The translations under genes were made by a program, and so were the position numbers. The notes beneath the pieces are model-generated. The model was not told the DNA's origin. It saw nothing but the letters and a program-made list of their open reading frames with translations, and did no database searches. A stretch of 64,000 nt of DNA from Arcanobacterium ihumii (lineage in GTDB: Bacteria > Actinomycetota > Actinomycetes > Actinomycetales > Actinomycetaceae), in contig NZ_UWOS01000003.1 of the NCBI RefSeq assembly GCF_900604515.1, positions 248,001-312,000 on the forward strand, read 5' to 3'. Shown here piece after piece: positions 32,442 to 41,963 of the stretch. Within the stretch, counting starts at the first letter, position 1; every line of letters starts with the position of its first letter.

Positions 32442-33395
32442 TTAAACTCCCGTCTCACTTTGAACCAGCGCAATTGCAGTAGCTTCATCAGTCACGAAAG
32501 TGTTGACATACCCACCTTTTAACGCCGCACGCAAAGCCGAAATCTTCTCATTTCCCCATGCAACAGCCACCACTTGCGGGATGGTGCGCAATTTCTCCAC
32601 ATCCATTGCGATAATTCTTTTACATAGAGGTGTCTCAATATGGTTACCGGCACTGTCTAAGTGGTGAGCACAAATATGTCCCACCGCTCCTTGCTGGGCA
32701 ATTCTCCGATCTATATCGGCTGGATACCAACCTTGAAAAATCTGCCCAGGCACATTTGCTACCAGCGCCCCCACGCCAACCAGAGCTAAATCGGCTCGTG
32801 CAGCGAGCTCTAGAACTGCCGCAACTTGGCCATCTTTTCGTAAATATTTTGCCGTTGCCGGCGAATCCAATACTAACGGGGCAGGCAAAATACGGTAAGT
32901 ACCACCAAGTTTTGCTGCCATCCTGCGGCAAATCTCAGGCGAATCTTCCAATGGATTCGATCTGCCAAGCGATCCAAGCATTTGCACAACGCAAGAATTA
33001 CTGCGGTGTTGCTGCGGCAAAGCATCGACGGTCGCTGAAATAGAACTTCCATTCGATACCGCGATCAAACCATCTCGAGGCGTTTGGGATGCCACAAATT
33101 CCGCAGCTAGTTGAGGAGGCCCTATCGGACCACTGTGCTGCGAAACCAAAGTTTTCTCTACCTGGAACATCGCACAGATCTGCTCTTCCAGACGTTCTAA
33201 GCGCTCGAGCGGATGAGAAATTTTAATAGTCACTAATCCTAAATCTTTGGCTTCTTGCAACATCCGAGACACTGTAGGGCGCGAATACCCAATCCTGCGC
33301 GAAATCTCCGCTTGAGATTGGCCATCGTCGTAATATGCACGAGCTACATCTATAAGAAGATGTAAACGCTTTCGATCACTTTCGCCATTGCACAT
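32442..33395 (-). CDS. SorC-family sugar-binding transcriptional regulator
   Basis: A 317-residue regulator. The N-terminal helix-turn-helix is at about 15-55 (YDDGQSQAEISRRIGYSRPT, then VSRMLQEAKDLGLV). The sugar-phosphate-binding domain follows (GLIAVSNGSSISATVDALPQ near 118-137 and the ADLALVGVGAL region near 215). Such proteins sense a phosphorylated sugar and control a linked catabolic operon. The divergent operon starting at 33649 is the obvious target. An inverted repeat overlaps this gene's own start codon, suggesting autoregulation. Confidence 0.92.
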   Translation of the reverse strand: MCNGESDRKRLHLLIDVARAYYDDGQSQAEISRRIGYSRPTVSRMLQEAKDLGLVTIKISHPLERLERLEEQICAMFQVEKTLVSQHSGPIGPPQLAAEFVASQTPRDGLIAVSNGSSISATVDALPQQHRSNSCVVQMLGSLGRSNPLEDSPEICRRMAAKLGGTYRILPAPLVLDSPATAKYLRKDGQVAAVLELAARADLALVGVGALVANVPGQIFQGWYPADIDRRIAQQGAVGHICAHHLDSAGNHIETPLCKRIIAMDVEKLRTIPQVVAVAWGNEKISALRAALKGGYVNTFVTDEATAIALVQSETGV

Positions 33396-33402
33396 ATGTT
33401 CA
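33389..33402. promoter_or_regulatory. SorC operator copy 1 (imperfect)
   Basis: TGCACATATGTTCA, one base off the perfect palindrome found at 33483. It overlaps the start codon of the SorC gene, which fits autorepression. Confidence 0.6.
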
Positions 33403-33482
33403 TTCTTTCATATTTTCAAAATAATGGAATAGCTATTGATTGCGAATTTCCATTCTTTCTTCGAAGTCCCTTTTTCCACAAG

Positions 33483-33496
33483 TGAACATATGTTCA
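33483..33496. promoter_or_regulatory. SorC operator copy 2 (perfect palindrome)
   Basis: TGAACATATGTTCA, a perfect 14-base palindrome, 94 bases from copy 1 and 10 bases before a possible -35 element (TTGGCA at 33506-33511) of the catabolic operon. A role as binding site is inferred from symmetry, duplication and position. Confidence 0.65.
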
Positions 33497-33648
33497 AAAT
33501 TTTCCTTGGCAAGCCCCCTTCTACGTGTGATTCTGATCCTGAGCGCACCTATTAGCGCGGAACAAATTGGCGATTGCGTCCATGAAACCCACGAACTCAT
33601 AGTTCTCAGCTTCAACACGATCGCCACCTCAAATCAAAGGAGATCACA

Positions 33649-34635
33649 ATGAGTTTCGCACGCACAATCCTTGGAGACGTCAATCCAGCCGAACTTGGCG
33701 TCGTCAACGCACACGACCACCTCATCCGTACCGGTGCAGGTGAAGTTTTCATCGATTCCGACCATCTTCTCGCAGACGTCGATAAGGCAGTTTACGAAGC
33801 TCGCCTTTTCGTTGACGCCTCAAAGAACTGGGCAAACACCGGCACAGTGGTAGACATGTGCCCAGCCAACTCCGGTCGAGATATGGATAAGCTTGTAGAA
33901 GTCAACAAGCGAGTCAAAGATCTCCATATCATCGCCACCACCGGCTTCCACCGTGAGAAGGTCTACCTCGAAACCCGCTCCCACTGGGTAACGCGCTACA
34001 GCGTTGATCAAATCACCGAGCTCCTCATCGCAGATATCAACGAAGGCATTGATCACCATGATTACTCCGGCCCAATCGTCGATCGCACCGACGTTAAAGC
34101 AGGTTGCATTAAAGTTGCTACCTCGTACGGCATGATTACCGATTTCGAGCGCAAATGTATGCAAGCCTGTGCAAATGCCTCCATTGAAACAGGTGCTCCT
34201 ATCAATACCCACACCACTTTTGGCACCTGCGGTCTCGAACAAGCTCAAGAACTTATTAAAATGGGTGTTCCCGCCGATCAAATCGCTATCGGACACATCC
34301 AGCGCAACGCCGATGTTTACTACCTCCAGCAGATCCTGGACACCGGCGCATACCTCGAGATTGACGGCACGAATCGCATCAAGTACCAGCCGGATTCTAA
34401 CCGCATCATGGAACTTCGCGAACTTGGCGAAAAAGGCTATGGCAAACGCATCCTACTCGGCACTGATTCCGGCAAGGCTTCCTACCAGAAAGCCTATGGT
34501 TCGGTAACCGGAGTCGATTACAACCCAGCCGTGGACGGTCCACGTATGATCGCTGAAGGCTTCGAACCCGAATATGTACGCGACCTGCTCATTAACAACG
34601 CCCGCACCTTCTTCACGATGCGCAAGGAAGCCTGA
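33649..34635 (+). CDS. Phosphotriesterase-family hydrolase, probable (phospho)lactonase
   Basis: A 328-residue amidohydrolase-superfamily protein of the phosphotriesterase-related branch (COG1735). Metal ligands: NAHDHLIR (H22, H24), the bridging Lys region GCIKVATSYG, INTHTTFG, IAIGHIQRNADVYYL and LLGTDSGKAS with the catalytic Asp. Mycoplasma members of this branch are known to hydrolyse phosphorylated sugar lactones, and the operon context here fits a lactonase far better than a pesticide-type phosphotriesterase. The ATG has an aaaggag ribosome site. It is the first gene of the ula-like operon and would play the part that UlaG has in E. coli. Confidence 0.85.
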   Translation: MSFARTILGDVNPAELGVVNAHDHLIRTGAGEVFIDSDHLLADVDKAVYEARLFVDASKNWANTGTVVDMCPANSGRDMDKLVEVNKRVKDLHIIATTGFHREKVYLETRSHWVTRYSVDQITELLIADINEGIDHHDYSGPIVDRTDVKAGCIKVATSYGMITDFERKCMQACANASIETGAPINTHTTFGTCGLEQAQELIKMGVPADQIAIGHIQRNADVYYLQQILDTGAYLEIDGTNRIKYQPDSNRIMELRELGEKGYGKRILLGTDSGKASYQKAYGSVTGVDYNPAVDGPRMIAEGFEPEYVRDLLINNARTFFTMRKEA

Positions 34636-34636
34636 C

Positions 34637-35290
34637 ATGACTCCCCGCCTGCAAATCGCCCTCGATACCCGCACGTTGGAGGACGCGCTCAGTGCATTGA
34701 GTCGCGGTGGAAGCGACGCAGAGGTGATCGAATGTGGCACAATCTTGATTCTCAACGAAGGCTTGCGCGCAGTACGTGCTATTCGCGCAGCGTATCCCGA
34801 TAAAACGATCCTCGCCGACGTGCGCATTGCAGAAGCCGGTTCCATCATCGCCCGCGATTGTTTCGCAGCCGGTGCGAACTGGGTATCCTGCGTAGCAGGC
34901 GCGTCATTAACCACCATCCGCCAGGTGGTGGAAGTGGCACGGGAGTGCGACGCCGAAGTACAAGTCGAGCTCAGCGCTGAACACTTCTCTCTTGACCGAG
35001 CGAAAGAATGGCGAGCTATCGGCGTCGAACACGTGATTGTAAAACGCTCACGCGATCTCGAAGCCGCAGGAACACTCACGTGGGGCGAAAAGGAGTTTGA
35101 GCAGATTGACGCTCTGCACGAACTCGGCTTCACCGTGTCCGTGACGGGCGGCATTAAAGTCGATGAGCTCGATACTTTTGCAGGTAAACCGGTAGGTGTG
35201 GTGATCGCTGGTCGCACCATCGTAGGCGCTGAGGACCCACGTAGCGCTACCGCCCAGATGCACGAAGCGATGCGCAGGATATGGCCATGA
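34637..35290 (+). CDS. UlaD-like 3-keto-L-gulonate-6-phosphate decarboxylase homologue, altered active site
   Basis: A 217-residue OMP-decarboxylase-superfamily barrel that aligns over its length with E. coli UlaD. Asp10, Glu32, Asp61, Glu111 and Arg139 are kept. The hallmark DxKxxD motif reads DVRIAE (Lys to Arg at 63, Asp to Glu at 66), and the HRSRD motif reads KRSRD (His to Lys at 136). Classical members need these residues to stabilise and protonate the enediolate, so the chemistry or substrate may have changed. The ATG is one base after the lactonase stop. The gene overlaps ulaE by 4 bases. No symbol is given because of the substitutions. Confidence 0.82.
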   Translation: MTPRLQIALDTRTLEDALSALSRGGSDAEVIECGTILILNEGLRAVRAIRAAYPDKTILADVRIAEAGSIIARDCFAAGANWVSCVAGASLTTIRQVVEVARECDAEVQVELSAEHFSLDRAKEWRAIGVEHVIVKRSRDLEAAGTLTWGEKEFEQIDALHELGFTVSVTGGIKVDELDTFAGKPVGVVIAGRTIVGAEDPRSATAQMHEAMRRIWP

Positions 35291-36165
35291 GATCCACGGT
35301 TACCCTAGGTATTTATGAGAAGGCGTTGAGGAGTCCCGACGACGATTGGGCGCGTTTTTTCGCCGACGTTACCGAAGCTAGATTTAGTTTCTGCGACCTC
35401 TCAGTGGATGAAACGCACCAGCGCGCCGCCCGCCTCGACTGGACCGAACAAACCTGCCGGAAAGTGCGCAATGCCGCAGCCAATCAAGGTACACAGATTG
35501 GCGGGATCTGCCTGTCTCTGCATCGTAAAGTGATGCCAGGCTCCGCCGATCCCAGAATCCGAAATCAGGCACTCGATGTCTATCGAAAAGGGATTGATTT
35601 ATGCCATAACCTCGGAGTAAGCGTATGCCAAGTTGCTGGTTATTTTGCCTACTACGAAGCCCCTGATCCCGATGCCAGACGCCGCTACCTCGACTGCCTC
35701 GAAGCCGCTCTGCCTTATGCTGCGCAAGCAGGCGTCATGCTGGGTATCGAGAATGTGGACGGCCACGATATTTCCTCGATCCCAGACGCGGTTGAAGTGG
35801 TAGAACACTTTAATAACCCTTGGTTACAGACCTATCCAGACATCGGCAATATTGCTGAACACGGAGGCGACGAAACCACGGAGTTGCGCGCCGGCGTCGG
35901 GAAAATGCTCGCAATCCACGTTAAAGACACTCGCCCTGGCGAACCTCGCCGCGTTCCATTCGGCACCGGAAACGTCAAATGGAACGACGCGTTTACCGAG
36001 CTAGCTCGCCAAAAGTGGAGCGGCAGGATCATGCTTGAAATGTGGAACGACGATTCGCCAGACTCGGTGACTATCTGCGCCAATGCTCGGCAAACCGTGA
36101 GCGAATGGCTAAACAATGCCGGAATATCAGTGATTCAAGCACAACGTACCGATACATGCGCATAA
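35287..36165 (+). CDS. ulaE: L-xylulose/L-ribulose-5-phosphate 3-epimerase (UlaE-like)
   Basis: A 292-residue TIM-barrel epimerase similar to E. coli UlaE throughout: LGIYEKALRS at the N-terminus, LSVDETHQRAARLDW, GIENVDGHDISSIPDAVEVV with a metal Glu, YPDIGNIAEHGGDE with Asp, IHVKDTRPGEPRRVPFGTGN with His, and IMLEMWNDD with the last Glu. It would convert L-xylulose-5-phosphate to L-ribulose-5-phosphate. ATG 35287 is chosen: it overlaps the previous stop (ATGA) and is better spaced from the agga ribosome site than the ATG at 35281. All expected ligand residues are present, unlike in its UlaD-like partner. Confidence 0.92.
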   Translation: MRSTVTLGIYEKALRSPDDDWARFFADVTEARFSFCDLSVDETHQRAARLDWTEQTCRKVRNAAANQGTQIGGICLSLHRKVMPGSADPRIRNQALDVYRKGIDLCHNLGVSVCQVAGYFAYYEAPDPDARRRYLDCLEAALPYAAQAGVMLGIENVDGHDISSIPDAVEVVEHFNNPWLQTYPDIGNIAEHGGDETTELRAGVGKMLAIHVKDTRPGEPRRVPFGTGNVKWNDAFTELARQKWSGRIMLEMWNDDSPDSVTICANARQTVSEWLNNAGISVIQAQRTDTCA

Positions 36166-36231
36166 ATACGCGCATCCAAATTACAGAAAATCAGCATTTC
36201 GTTTATACACGAAAAACGAAGGAGTTAAAGA

Positions 36232-36900
36232 ATGCTGAATGAACTCAAAAATAGAGTGTGCGAAGGGAACCTTGAACTTCAACGGCACGGACTCGTAGCC
36301 TGGACCGGTGGGAATCTTTCAGCACTAGACTCAGATACTGGATACATCGTGATTAAACCCTCTGGCGTGCGCTATGAGGAAATGACACCCGAAAAAATGG
36401 TGGTTGTTGATGCCAATGGAAAGGTTGTGGAGGGAGACTTGGGACCGTCGTCGGACACCGCTTCCCACCTCGCTCTATACGCAGCCCGTCCGGAATTACG
36501 TTCAATTATTCATACCCACTCTCGCTACGCGACAGCCTTCGCGGCGGTCGGCAAGAATATTCCCTGCTGCCTTACTGCCATAGCAGATGAATTTGGCGGA
36601 CCCATCCCTTGTGCGCGTTATGCACCTATTGGAGGGGTTGATATCGCAAACGCTATATTAGAATGTGGTGGGCATTCACCTGCAGTACTACTCAAACAAC
36701 ACGGAGTATTTACCATGGGCACATCCATCCCTAAGGCGCTACAAGCTGCTGTTATGGTCGAAGATGTAGCAAAAACCGTAGCAGTAGCTATGAGTCTAGG
36801 GAATATCGAAGAACTCTCCCAAGCAGAGATCGAATCAAACTTCGATCGCTACTCCAACCGATATGGAACCATCAACGCATCTTTAGGAGTGAGTAAGTGA
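36232..36900 (+). CDS. ulaF: L-ribulose-5-phosphate 4-epimerase (UlaF/AraD family)
   Basis: A 222-residue class II aldolase-family zinc epimerase that converts L-ribulose-5-phosphate to D-xylulose-5-phosphate, feeding the pentose phosphate pathway. WTGGNLSALD near 24-33, the SDTASHLALYAA region, the zinc motif IIHTHSRYATAF and LLKQHGVFTMG are conserved. It is 66 bases downstream of ulaE, with a cgaaggag ribosome site. An inverted repeat, TTTCGT-N6-ACGAAA, lies in that gap at 36197-36214. AraD and UlaF cannot be told apart by sequence; the context favours UlaF. Confidence 0.9.
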   Translation: MLNELKNRVCEGNLELQRHGLVAWTGGNLSALDSDTGYIVIKPSGVRYEEMTPEKMVVVDANGKVVEGDLGPSSDTASHLALYAARPELRSIIHTHSRYATAFAAVGKNIPCCLTAIADEFGGPIPCARYAPIGGVDIANAILECGGHSPAVLLKQHGVFTMGTSIPKALQAAVMVEDVAKTVAVAMSLGNIEELSQAEIESNFDRYSNRYGTINASLGVSK

Positions 36901-37847
36901 TGTTTGACTTGACTACAATTGGTGAAGGCCAGATCCGACTCACGGTCCCGCGTGGAGAACGATTAGTAAACGCAGTGAGCTTGCGCATGTCTGCTGCCTG
37001 TTCAGAAGCGAATGTGGCCGGTCTACTTTCGCAACTTGGGCGTTCAACATCGTGGTGCTCCAAGATGCCACGTGGCGAACTTGCCACGCGCGTGTTGCAA
37101 GAGTTCCGTTCAGTTGGCGTAGATATGTCTAATATGGTCCGAGTTGACGACGGTCGCGTTGCCCTTTATTTCATGGAACCAGGCGACTACCCAATGCCAT
37201 CGAAGGTTATTTACGATCGCCTCCATACTCCATTCCGTGACATTGAGATTGACGATGTCAATTGGGAATCGATGCTCGACACAAGGCTCGTTTTCGTCAC
37301 AGGTATCACCGCAGCACTTTCGCCAAATACTGCGAAGATAGTCCGTCACTTCTGCGAACAGGCTCACGAGCGTGGAATTGATATTGCACTTGATGTTAAT
37401 TACAGATCCTTATTATGGGATGCCGACCAAGCTCGAAGTGTACTCGAACCCATTGCTCGCATGTCCACCTTGGTATTTGCCTCTCGTAAAGATGCTCAAA
37501 CAGTATTTGGAATGCCCGACTTGAGTGGCGTGGAAGTCTGTAAGAAGACCCGTGAATTCCTTGGAGTTTCAACCGTCGTTTCCACTGATTCCACCCATGG
37601 CGTATATCTTTCCGACGAACACGGCGAGGAGCAGTTCAACGTTGACGTTGTGCCTGTTATTGATCGCCCAGGCGCCGGAGACTCGTTTGTAGCAGGAACT
37701 ATACATGGATTCTTGCAAGGCGACGTTCGCGCGGGTGTGGGTTATGGGCAACGAGTTTCAACGTTCGCACTTACTCACCACGGCGACCTTACCCACATTT
37801 CGGCGATGGAACTAGACCTTCCGAAAACAACCGACATTATTCGGTAA
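36900..37847 (+). CDS. PfkB-family sugar kinase
   Basis: A 315-residue ribokinase-family kinase. The N-terminal TIGEGQIRLTVPRGERL is 2-dehydro-3-deoxygluconokinase-like. DVNYRSLLWD near 160-170 contacts the phosphoacceptor, and RPGAGDSFVAGTIHGFLQG near 260 holds the catalytic Asp. In an operon without a PTS it is the natural source of phosphorylation for the imported sugar acid or lactone. The start is ATG 36900, sharing a base with the ulaF stop; GTG 36897 is an alternative. Confidence 0.88.
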   Translation: MFDLTTIGEGQIRLTVPRGERLVNAVSLRMSAACSEANVAGLLSQLGRSTSWCSKMPRGELATRVLQEFRSVGVDMSNMVRVDDGRVALYFMEPGDYPMPSKVIYDRLHTPFRDIEIDDVNWESMLDTRLVFVTGITAALSPNTAKIVRHFCEQAHERGIDIALDVNYRSLLWDADQARSVLEPIARMSTLVFASRKDAQTVFGMPDLSGVEVCKKTREFLGVSTVVSTDSTHGVYLSDEHGEEQFNVDVVPVIDRPGAGDSFVAGTIHGFLQGDVRAGVGYGQRVSTFALTHHGDLTHISAMELDLPKTTDIIR

Positions 37848-37915
37848 TCGCTGCTGATATTTTCTCTTGTACCTCTAGGGTTGACGGTACAGCTATACAT
37901 AAATTGAGGAACACT

Positions 37916-39325
37916 ATGTCAAAAACTGCAATGGAGCAGATTGATTCCCTGCCATTAACTCGAAATCAAAAATCACTCATTGGGCTCACAATTGTGGGCA
38001 ATATTTCCGAATTCTTCGACCTTTTTCTTATAGGATTCGTTATTCATCTGTTAATGAAGACGCCCGGATGGGAACTCACTGGATTTGAAGCCGGAATCAT
38101 CGGTGCAGCATCAGGCATTGGAACTGTGCTTGGTGCCGTACTTTGGGGACGCCTTGCGGATAGCATCGGCAGGAAAAAGGCGTTTATTTGGTGTATCGCC
38201 GTACTAGTCTTTTTCACCGCGGTTACACTCACCATTCAGCCAGGTCAGTGGCAGCTTCTTAGTTTATACCGAGTTGGTGTTTGTATCGGTGTAGGCGGAT
38301 TAAATATCACCTCAATCCCGTTTGTGCAGGAATTCGTTCCTGCACAACAACGCGGTCTGCTATCTGGATTGACATCGGTATTTATTCCATTAGGTATTTT
38401 CCTTGGATCACTTGCAACAAAAGTACTCGGTGAACCATTTGGCTGGAAGGGACTCATTGCCCTTGGCTGTATTCCTGTTGTGCTTATCGCTTGGGCAGCA
38501 ATCGTACCTGAATCTCCACGATTCTTAATTTCTCATGGCCAAATTGATGAGGCGCGTAAGGCATACGCATGGGCAATGCGCATACCAGAAGGGAATGTGG
38601 GAGAACTTCCTGTTATTCCTTCCGAAAATAGTTCTGAGAAAGTGGCTAAAGTTTCGTACGGACACGTACTTCACAAATACCCAAAGCAACTTGTTATTAT
38701 TTCACTCGGCTCATTTTGCTTCATCTTAGGGGCCTTTACAGTACAGTCATGGGGGCAAAGCATCCTTGGGGAGAGCTTCAAATTTGACGTTTCCACTGTT
38801 GCCTACATGTTTATGGGTGTCTCATTAGCCGATTTGCTTGGCCGGCTCGGTTCAGCATGGATTTCAGATCGGATTGGACGGCGTCGCACAATGTTTATCT
38901 GGGGTCTGTTCGGCGCAGTAGGGTGCGTTATTGCAGCAATCTCAGCAAAGGTTGCTTCTGGAACATTTAGTGGCACTGGAGCAGAATCTTCGAGCACGGT
39001 TCATACTGCAGGAATCGTCTTCTTTATTGGTATCGTCGTTGCAATGGCTTTTGGCGACGGCGCTTTCGGGATTCTCAACGCTTTTGGTGCCGAGCAATTT
39101 CCGAATGATGTTCGCTCCACGGGTGTTGGTTTAGGATACGGAATTGGGGCAATAGCAAAGGTTGTTGGTCCATACTTCGTAGGCGCATTGATTGGTGGGG
39201 GTAAGCCAACTCCTGACGTGGTGTTCTTACCGTTTATCGTGTTCGCTGTTCTCCTTGTTGCCGGTGGTTTCATCTACCTCCAAGCTGATGAAACTGCAGG
39301 AAAGCAACTAGAACAAATCAAGTAA
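37916..39325 (+). CDS. MFS transporter, sugar/acid:H+ symporter type
   Basis: A 469-residue major facilitator with 12 predicted helices. The loop 2-3 signature reads GRLADSIGRKKAFIW and the loop 8-9 repeat reads SAWISDRIGRRRTMFIW. PESPRFLISHGQ, after helix 6, is typical of the sugar and metabolite:H+ symporter branches. It ends a catabolic operon and is the likely uptake system, replacing the UlaABC PTS. ATG 37916 has a ttgagga ribosome site; an in-frame TTG at 37904 lies inside that site. Confidence 0.9.
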   Translation: MSKTAMEQIDSLPLTRNQKSLIGLTIVGNISEFFDLFLIGFVIHLLMKTPGWELTGFEAGIIGAASGIGTVLGAVLWGRLADSIGRKKAFIWCIAVLVFFTAVTLTIQPGQWQLLSLYRVGVCIGVGGLNITSIPFVQEFVPAQQRGLLSGLTSVFIPLGIFLGSLATKVLGEPFGWKGLIALGCIPVVLIAWAAIVPESPRFLISHGQIDEARKAYAWAMRIPEGNVGELPVIPSENSSEKVAKVSYGHVLHKYPKQLVIISLGSFCFILGAFTVQSWGQSILGESFKFDVSTVAYMFMGVSLADLLGRLGSAWISDRIGRRRTMFIWGLFGAVGCVIAAISAKVASGTFSGTGAESSSTVHTAGIVFFIGIVVAMAFGDGAFGILNAFGAEQFPNDVRSTGVGLGYGIGAIAKVVGPYFVGALIGGGKPTPDVVFLPFIVFAVLLVAGGFIYLQADETAGKQLEQIK

Positions 39326-39360
39326 TTTCCAGTTCCCAGCCAATAGCAATTTATTAGGTC

Positions 39361-39399
39361 GGCTTGGGTGCTACATTGCCGCAATGTAACACCTAAGCC
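39361..39399. terminator. Bidirectional terminator, MFS gene / pyrB
   Basis: Inverted repeat with 18-base arms at 39361-39378 and 39382-39399, two non-Watson-Crick positions, and loop ccg. A T run follows on the + strand. It lies between convergent operons. Confidence 0.8.
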
Positions 39400-39413
39400 A
39401 ACTCGTTTTTCTA

Positions 39414-40556
39414 CTACACTACCGCCTCGCAAAATGCACAACGGTATTCATTGGTTTTATCGCTGACCCGCTGAATTAGCGGCTCTACTACGCCACGTTC
39501 CACATTTGTAATACATCGAGCATTAGAACAATGGTCACCATTACGCATATAGTGGCCATTTGCTAATGGGCCGATGTCCGTCATTCCCCAATTCTCATTG
39601 AGAAGTGCATTAATTAGTGCCATACGGATGAATTTTCCATTCAAAGCCTGTTCAAAGTAACAGGCACGTGGATCCTCATCCACATCCACTGCAATCTCAT
39701 TAACCCGTGGCAGTGGATGCAAAATGCACATATCAGACTTTGCTGTTTTTAATTTCTCACGCCGAAGAATATAGCTATCCTTCAGCCGAAGATACTCAGC
39801 CGGGTCATCAAAACGCTCCTGCTGAATCCGTGTCATGTATAAAACATCGAGTTCAGGCATAGCGTCTTCCAAAGATTGCGTTTCTACCACCTCAACACCA
39901 CATTTAGCCAGCTCATTAGCACCAATATAATCAGGTATCCGCAGTTCCGTTGGCGAAATGAACACCATCTTCACTCCCTCATATCTTGCCAATGCTCGAA
40001 CTAAAGAATGTACAGTCCGCCCATATTTGAGATCACCGCAAAACCCAACCGTTAGCCCATCAAAACCACCCTTTTTCCGATAAATGGTTAGCAGGTCGGT
40101 GAGCGTCTGAGTAGGATGGTTGTGTCCGCCGTCGCCCGCATTAATAACCGGTACAGTTGCATTTAATGAGGCCAGCAGTGGCGCTCCTTCAAGCGGATGC
40201 CTCATCGCAATCACATCTGCATAGCAGGAAATTATCCGTGCAGTATCTGCAACGCTTTCCCCTTTTACCACTGAAGAACTAGAGGCTTCTGAAAAACCCA
40301 GTACGTTTCCGCCCAATCCATACATTGCGGCTTCGAAACTTAATCGGGTTCGAGTAGATGGCTCATAGAACAAAGTTGCCAGTTTCTTTCCTCTGCAAGC
40401 GTGAGCATATTTACTAGGATTATTCGCTATATCTACGCCCGTCAAAATAAGGTTGTCTATCTCATCAGTTCTATAATCAAGGATATCGATCAAACTTCGC
40501 GTACGGGCTCCACAAGCATTTTCCTTGTCCTGTATTTGTGCTTCATCCACATACAT
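39414..40556 (-). CDS. pyrB: Aspartate carbamoyltransferase with fused PyrI-type zinc domain
   Basis: A 380-residue protein. Residues 1 to about 325 are an ATCase catalytic chain with the carbamoyl-phosphate loop [13 protein letters not shown] (STRT at 67-70), [20 protein letters not shown] and [10 protein letters not shown]. The C-terminal 55 residues match the zinc-binding domain of the regulatory chain PyrI, with Cys at about 343, 348, 373 and 376 ([13 protein letters not shown] and [10 protein letters not shown]). The nucleotide-binding allosteric domain of PyrI is missing. The start is ATG 40556 ([12 protein letters not shown]); the frame extends upstream into pyrE, but without similarity. 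It overlaps pyrE by 14 bases and is the last gene of the pyr operon. Confidence 0.92.
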
Positions 40557-41252: not shown

Positions 41253-41963
41253 TTAATCGTTACCTAAAAATTCCTCTATGCAATATTCATATGCAGCCAC
41301 TGGATCGCTAGCTGCTGTGATTGGGCGTCCCACCACGATGTAGTCTGAACCAGCTTCACAAGCAGCCCGTGGCGTCATCACTCGGCGTTGATCGCCAGCC
41401 TCGCCGTGGGCAAGTCGGATACCAGGAGTAACGGTCAAGAACTCCGCTCCACAGGATTTGTGCACTTCTCTAGCTTCTAGCGGAGAACAAACAACACCGT
41501 CAAGGCCCGCATTTTGAGCATTCTTCGCATAGGAAGAAACCACGTTCGCAAGCGGTTCCTTAATCAAAAGGTCACGTTCCATTGTTTCTTGATCGGTACT
41601 GGTCAACTGGGTTATTGCAATCAGAACTGGACGTGAGTCATTAGTACTAGAGCAGCCCTCCAGCGCGGCTCGCATCATCGGACCAGAACCCATCGCATGA
41701 ACGTTACACATATCAACATTTAGGTCTGATAACACACGCATCGTTCGTTCAACCGTATTCGGGATGTCGTGGAGTTTGAGGTCTAGGAAAACTTGGTGAC
41801 CACGCCTTTTAAGGGCACGTACGATCTGTGGCCCCTCAGAGTAAAAAAGCTCCATTCCGATTTTCACATAGGGTTTATAGCCACTTGAACCGAAAAGATC
41901 TAAAAATTCAAAAACTCTTTCTTTTGACGGAAAGTCGCAGGCGACAATAACGTCCTTTGCCAT
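41253..41963 (-). CDS. pyrF: Orotidine 5'-phosphate decarboxylase
   Basis: A 236-residue type I OMP decarboxylase, the last step to UMP. The catalytic signature VFLDLKLHDIPNTVERTM (DxKxxD, at about 58-75) is intact, in contrast to the UlaD-like superfamily member at 34637. The N-terminal VACDFPSKERV and C-terminal TPGIRLAHGEAGDQRRVM and DYIVVGRPI phosphate-binding segments are normal. Gaps to neighbours are 50 and 25 bases. Confidence 0.95.
   Translation of the reverse strand: MAKDVIVACDFPSKERVFEFLDLFGSSGYKPYVKIGMELFYSEGPQIVRALKRRGHQVFLDLKLHDIPNTVERTMRVLSDLNVDMCNVHAMGSGPMMRAALEGCSSTNDSRPVLIAITQLTSTDQETMERDLLIKEPLANVVSSYAKNAQNAGLDGVVCSPLEAREVHKSCGAEFLTVTPGIRLAHGEAGDQRRVMTPRAACEAGSDYIVVGRPITAASDPVAAYEYCIEEFLGND

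Follow-up and report, generated by a model that had tools for sequence, protein, structure and literature searches.

A UlaD-type decarboxylase with a substituted DxKxxD motif in a predicted PTS-free operon for ascorbate or a near analogue

The UlaD homologue of Arcanobacterium ihumii described here belongs to a branch of UlaD-type proteins that carries Arg and Glu at two positions of the DxKxxD motif, which is generally taken as a mark of OMPDC, HPS and KGPDC. Its operon context and retained residues point to the ordinary reaction, and we consider it likely, at roughly two chances in three, that the protein keeps the usual KGPDC job in a pathway that handles ascorbate or a very near analogue without a PTS. 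The enzyme itself is familiar and the variant appears to be new; the pathway, too, resembles a known one from which the PTS is missing. A whole branch that departs from DxKxxD at two positions, with the rest of the active site kept, is a natural test of which catalytic parts are replaceable. The operon also predicts two so far unassigned activities, PfkB ascorbate kinase and PTE-type ascorbate-6-phosphate lactonase, which concern host-associated Actinomycetota such as Bifidobacterium, Cutibacterium and Actinomyces. In the open-licence PMC papers searched, the phrase 'ascorbate kinase' did not occur and none of the titles listed dealt with this branch or with a PfkB ascorbate kinase; a description may exist elsewhere.

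The UlaD homologue and its active-site residues

The gene lies at 34637..35290 on the plus strand of the window, the 64,000-nucleotide stretch of A. ihumii DNA that was analysed, and forms an intact open reading frame of 217 aa. Its product is a member of the OMPdecase/HUMPS family, and the closest solved structure is E. coli KGPDC (1kv8, E 2.2e-51). In place of DxKxxD it reads DVRIAE (D61-E66, equivalent to D62-D67 of E. coli; 34817..34834), with R63 at E. coli position 64 encoded by CGC (34823-34825) and E66 at E. coli position 67 by GAA (34832-34834). KRSRD replaces HRSRD, an AAA codon at 35042..35044 specifying Lys136 where E. coli UlaD has His136; all of these codons are on the plus strand. 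A preliminary description of this DNA had noted the replacement of Lys64, Asp67 and His136 by Arg, Glu and Lys as well as the retention of the metal-binding Asp and Glu residues, and both observations were confirmed. The protein retains D10, E32, D61, E111, R139, T170 and R193, a set that corresponds to D11, E33, D62, E112, R139, T169 and R192 in E. coli numbering. The same description was right that pyrF of the window (41253-41963, minus strand) has an unchanged DLKLHD, and that the gene is translationally coupled: the PTE ORF ends at 34635, the UlaD ATG is at 34637, and ulaE, whose ATG lies at either 35281 or 35287, begins in overlap with the UlaD stop codon. These two, pyrF and the UlaD homologue, are the only OMPdecase-family genes in the 2.0 Mb genome (4 contigs), where no second UlaD was found.

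Positions 64 and 136 were evidently thought catalytic, since E. coli mutants in both have been solved (1so4 reads K64A and 1so3 reads H136A), and Lys64 and His136 are included in a table of predicted functional residues in PMC5980557; taken together, these sources indicate that their loss could change the chemistry. The absence of residues that the E. coli studies had mutated might also suggest an inactive or decaying copy, which we regard as highly improbable. The nearest named relatives, in Arcanobacterium, are 96% identical; in the relatives sample, which held 9 further genomes from the genus, 2 had the gene. Comparison with two Arcanobacterium copies indicated purifying selection, with NG86 dN/dS values of 0.023/0.555 and 0.021/0.417 (~0.04 and ~0.05) and YN00 ratios of ~0.07 and ~0.08 for the same comparisons. 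Ratios of ~0.04-0.08 by two methods, the intact and coupled reading frame, and the presence of the same Arg/Glu pair in all 80 loci of a contig scan (the best 80 of 125, one search pattern favouring the pair) speak against decay. We rejected decay on the dN/dS values, and the earlier view of an intact gene under selection stands.

The protein scored 230.6 bits against NCBI's KGPDC subfamily model PRK13306, under the cut-off of 250. Five other proteins with the Arg/Glu pair were scanned, and three of them passed (L117, 277.7; L119, 260; L055, 252.5) and two did not (L200, 240.5; L087, 223.5). Among the features expected of KGPDC, DxKxxD and His136 are replaced (DVRIAE, Lys136), and Thr169, Glu112, Arg139 and Arg192 are present (T170, E111, R139 and R193 in the window protein), as is an operon with UlaE and UlaF. 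Across nine families, according to PMC5980557, Thr169 is the only residue found exclusively in KGPDC. The features of HPS, namely Asp112, Ala169 and an hxlB/RuMP context, were not found: the window protein has E111 and T170, and hxlB is absent from the operon genes scanned.

Distribution and co-varying residues of the Arg/Glu branch

Genome contigs were scanned with the window protein aligned to eight relatives; this yielded 125 relatives, and the best 80 loci were retained. The motif is part of one of the two peptide patterns used in the scan, which biases the set toward it. Arg64/Glu67 (R/E, E. coli numbering) was found in 82 of 93 aligned rows, comprising the 80 loci (best 80 of 125), the window and L009; the other 11 were ten reference rows with Lys, Asp and His (K/D/H) and one fragment. 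Searches without the motif pattern gave close matches that were R/E in 36 of 37 rows and R/R in one, at least three rows being duplicate fetches of one place and hits at or below 35% identity being excluded; those excluded hits that were read were K/D and HPS-like. The tree set of 113 rows contained 83 R/E, 28 Lys/Asp (K/D) and 2 Arg/Arg rows, and no mixed R/D or K/E pair occurred among them. An isolated substitution without relatives, the outcome that the preliminary description had named as counting against it, is thus not what these 83 of 113 rows display.

L115 and an L111 fragment were removed before the tree was built, and 20 of 59 further loci entered it, along with L191 and L210. Sampling of K/D UlaD-type proteins was thin (15 rows), with Firmicutes drawn from plasmid records only. 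A quick tree of the 113 rows, with columns 64, 67 and 136 removed, placed the 83 R/E and 2 R/R rows together to one side of a branch supported at 78 (not starred), a value that rises to 90 at the node excluding L179; several long branches make the deep placement unsure. The division of the rows into 100 on the UlaD side and 13 that are HPS-like had an SH-aLRT of 99 in this quick, long-branched tree, the window protein grouping with UlaD/SgbH rather than with HPS.

R/E rows were found in Actinomycetota, Pseudomonadota, Chloroflexota and Spirochaetota. Matches were few in each phylum sample: 11 of 247 Spirochaetota genomes (the seed R/E, nine K/D UlaD-type and one K/D HPS-like), 3 of 301 Chloroflexota genomes (two R/E, one of them the seed, and one HPS-like), and 1 of 240 alphaproteobacterial genomes, namely the seed itself. 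The branch is therefore wide but patchy.

Several loci are of separate interest. In Bifidobacterium callitrichos (L115) the R/E UlaD gene is spread over two ORFs, by a frameshift or a sequencing error. Two scaffolds of Phycicoccus flavus (L066 and L067) share gene order and an identical UlaD, a recent or an assembly duplicate. In one genome of Pleomorphomonas carboxyditropha (L087/L168, L174/L199), an operon with an R/E UlaD coexists with a K/D operon of SgbH type that includes YiaK-like and LyxK-like genes. L202 (G803:C27) and L210 (G1695) have a paralogue that has diverged further, with DIRIAR, Ala169 and Ser192, and in L202 also Cys140. L202 lies in the same genome as the Bifidobacterium simiarum locus L055 and has its own SorC, PTE-like, PfkB-like, UlaE-like and MFS genes; this paralogue is the stronger candidate for a genuine change of function.

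Across the 83 R/E rows, E33, D62, E112, T169 and R192 are invariant and R139 is present in 82. The 13 HPS-like rows are K/D, with D112 in 13 of 13 and Ala (12) or Val (1) at 169. Because residues 112 and 169 of the R/E rows are not HPS-like, an HPS-type enzyme was rejected. Other positions change along with the motif. R/E rows have S85 (82), V87 (82), A/S88 (83), G89 (82), V135 (78) and V/I188 (78), compared with T85 (15), I87 (13), C88 (13), A/S89 (14), Y135 (13) and F188 (15) in the 15 K/D UlaD-type rows; position 89 of E. coli UlaD is Cys. The Arg/Glu pair has the same charges on longer side chains, and the strands next to it carry several smaller residues, which to us looks like a repacked pocket.

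Position 136 behaves differently. Of the 83 R/E rows, 56 carry Lys there and 27 carry His; the position changes five times on the tree, and residue 141 varies together with it. The third substitution is thus separate and labile, and a fixed R/E/K trio was rejected. No tie between Lys136 and lactonase type was seen, in a weak test of two independent pairs on starred branches. Of the RxxE plus Lys clade that the preliminary description suggested looking for, the Arg/Glu pair does mark a branch with many relatives; Lys136 does not.

With the catalytic Lys, Asp and His gone, three residues of the KGPDC set are altered, and the protein could have become an epimerase, an aldolase/synthase or an isomerase; members of the suprafamily are known for differing reactions on one fold. 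We consider this unlikely: the R/E rows have Thr169 in 83 of 83 cases and no HPS markers, both epimerases are already encoded in the operon, pyrF is the genome's only other gene of the family, and His136 persists in 27 of 83 R/E rows in the same kind of operon.

The operon and a predicted PTS-free pathway

Upstream of the operon and divergent from it is a SorC/DeoR-type sugar-binding regulator (32442..33395, minus strand). The first plus-strand gene (33649..34635) encodes a PTE-family protein, a predicted phospho-furanose or ascorbate-6-phosphate lactonase, which scores 259.3 bits against NF045706, far under the equivalog cut-off of 630, and has 3msr as its best solved match (E 5.9e-65). We take 3msr to be MS53_0025 of Mycoplasma synoviae. 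H22, H24, K155, H188, H216 and D273 presumably occupy the expected PTE metal ligand positions. Lactonases of the phospho-furanose type are reportedly active on pentono-lactone-5-phosphates, which, like the low score, counts against the ascorbate reading. Phosphate binding in MS53_0025 is said to involve K217, K244, Y245, R275 and Y278; in our own reading of the alignment, R219, K245, Y246, K276 and Y279 of the window protein align with these positions. The match favours phosphorylation before ring opening.

Downstream of the UlaD homologue, all on the plus strand, are genes for a UlaE-like L-ribulose-5-phosphate 3-epimerase (35281..36165, alternative ATG 35287; PRK13209, 320.3 bits, cut-off 317), a UlaF/AraD-like L-ribulose-5-phosphate 4-epimerase (36232..36900; PRK06557, 297.7 bits, cut-off 251), a PfkB-family kinase, the predicted maker of the 6-phosphate (36897..37847), and an MFS transporter, the predicted importer (37904..39325). 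The best solved match of the kinase is 2afb, a 2-keto-3-deoxygluconate kinase, so phosphorylation may instead follow ring opening. An E. coli-type ula regulon with ulaABC PTS and UlaG is not present, neither UlaG nor EIIC-GAT having a match in the genome. Scanned for promoters and terminators, the region 33300-39450 showed no clear excess over shuffled sequence, with 1 promoter-like element (shuffle mean 6.3) and 7 terminator-like elements (shuffle mean 5.7, sd 2.1).

Similar neighbourhoods recur across the branch. Counting neighbours at 100 bits or more in the best 80 of 125 loci, PfkB was present in 78, UlaE in 75, the MFS transporter in 71, the SorC regulator in 69 and UlaF in 63, and UlaA, UlaB and LyxK in none; a weak UlaC-like ORF at L080 (71 bits) was excluded from the PTS count. 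Some of the loci missing UlaF (17 of 80) or UlaE (5 of 80) at this threshold are cut. PfkB is absent from L045, where the contig stops soon after the gene, and from L060 despite 8 kb of downstream sequence. The operons of L110 and L117 include binding-protein and permease genes of an ABC importer, and no MFS gene was detected in these two.

In the lactonase slot of the same loci (best 80 of 125), 66 had a PTE-type enzyme, 13 had UlaG and one cut locus (L106) had neither; on the tree, the lactonase type changes three times. The UlaG proteins of the 13 loci are 62-76% identical to E. coli UlaG; identity above 55% was taken to denote putative orthologues in PMC3219644. The equivalog cut-off for UlaG is 306 bits, which the proteins of L117 (645) and L200 (632) exceed. 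The most telling locus is L200 of the Chloroflexota sample (G1100:C55), which combines an R/E UlaD (DVRVAE/HKSRD) with both PTE and UlaG lactonases and with ascorbate-PTS-type EIIA and EIIC. Conversely, Mycoplasmopsis cynos has an operon of PTE lactonase, ascorbate PTS, DGKIAD UlaD, UlaE and UlaF. These combinations indicate that PTE and UlaG are interchangeable beside both kinds of UlaD. An association with PTE only was rejected on the 13 UlaG loci; the link to PTE lactonases suggested in the preliminary description holds for 66 of the 80 loci but is not exclusive, and the M. cynos operon breaks exclusivity from the other side. In a Listeria monocytogenes record (L192), a PTE-family gene adjoins an ascorbate-type PTS, and genes for a KDGP aldolase, a sugar isomerase and a creatininase-family protein stand there in place of ulaDEF.

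Judging by these neighbourhoods, the MFS transporter would import ascorbate or a near analogue and the PfkB kinase would phosphorylate it to the 6-phosphate. The PTE-type lactonase, in the place of UlaG, would then open the ring to give 3-keto-L-gulonate-6-P, and R/E UlaD would decarboxylate this to L-xylulose-5-P. UlaE would convert the product to L-ribulose-5-P and UlaF convert that to D-xylulose-5-P. Weighing against this reading are the loss of Lys64 and His136, the sub-cut-off scores of the window UlaD homologue and PTE, the loci in which UlaF, UlaE or PfkB was not found, and the unstarred support of the branch. We put forward more tentatively, at somewhat less than even odds, a fuller version in which the Arg/Glu branch, its position 136 free to change from His to Lys, works with an altered arrangement of the residues that bind the enediolate and supply the proton, within a so far undescribed ascorbate pathway that starts with a PfkB ascorbate 6-kinase and uses a PTE ascorbate-6-phosphate lactonase.

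Alternatively, the decarboxylase chemistry might be unchanged and the substrate a different but related one, such as a 6-phosphate derived from an ascorbate isomer or another lactone; the Arg/Glu pair, together with the smaller residues of the strands, would then tune specificity. PTE rather than UlaG in 66 of 80 loci (best 80 of 125) would fit this, as would the private kinase and transporter; moreover, active-site positions 87 and 88 of 1xbv, which appear in a predicted-functional-residue table in PMC5980557, change along with the motif. UlaG nevertheless takes the lactonase slot in 13 of those 80 loci, the lactonase type has changed three times, one R/E gene (L200) sits in an ascorbate-type PTS operon, and L-xylulose-5-P as product fits UlaE and UlaF. 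We give a different substrate perhaps one chance in five's worth of weight, well below the ordinary KGPDC reaction. The proposal in the preliminary description of a different reaction is not supported, given Thr169 in 83 of 83 R/E rows, UlaG in 13 of the best 80 of 125 loci and the PTS operon of L200.

Comparison with known systems

HPS belongs to the same suprafamily and the same Pfam family as the window protein, but the HPS-like rows are K/D with D112 and A/V169, and the window gene has no adjoining hxlB. The phospho-furanose lactonase (NF045706, 3msr) is the best solved relative of the window PTE, yet the score of 259.3 bits compares with a cut-off of 630. SgbH of the E. coli yia/sgb operon resembles the window system as a KGPDC with a cytosolic kinase gene, no PTS and adjoining epimerases; it differs in its kinase, LyxK instead of PfkB, and in its motifs, DWKVAD and HRGRD. 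E. coli UlaD (1kv8) is of the same family, with 41% identity, and shares D11, E33, D62, E112, R139, T169, R192 and the adjoining ulaE and ulaF. Relative to it, the window protein has K64R, D67E and H136K and smaller residues at 85, 87-89, 135 and 188, and its gene adjoins those for a PfkB kinase and an MFS transporter and not a PTS.
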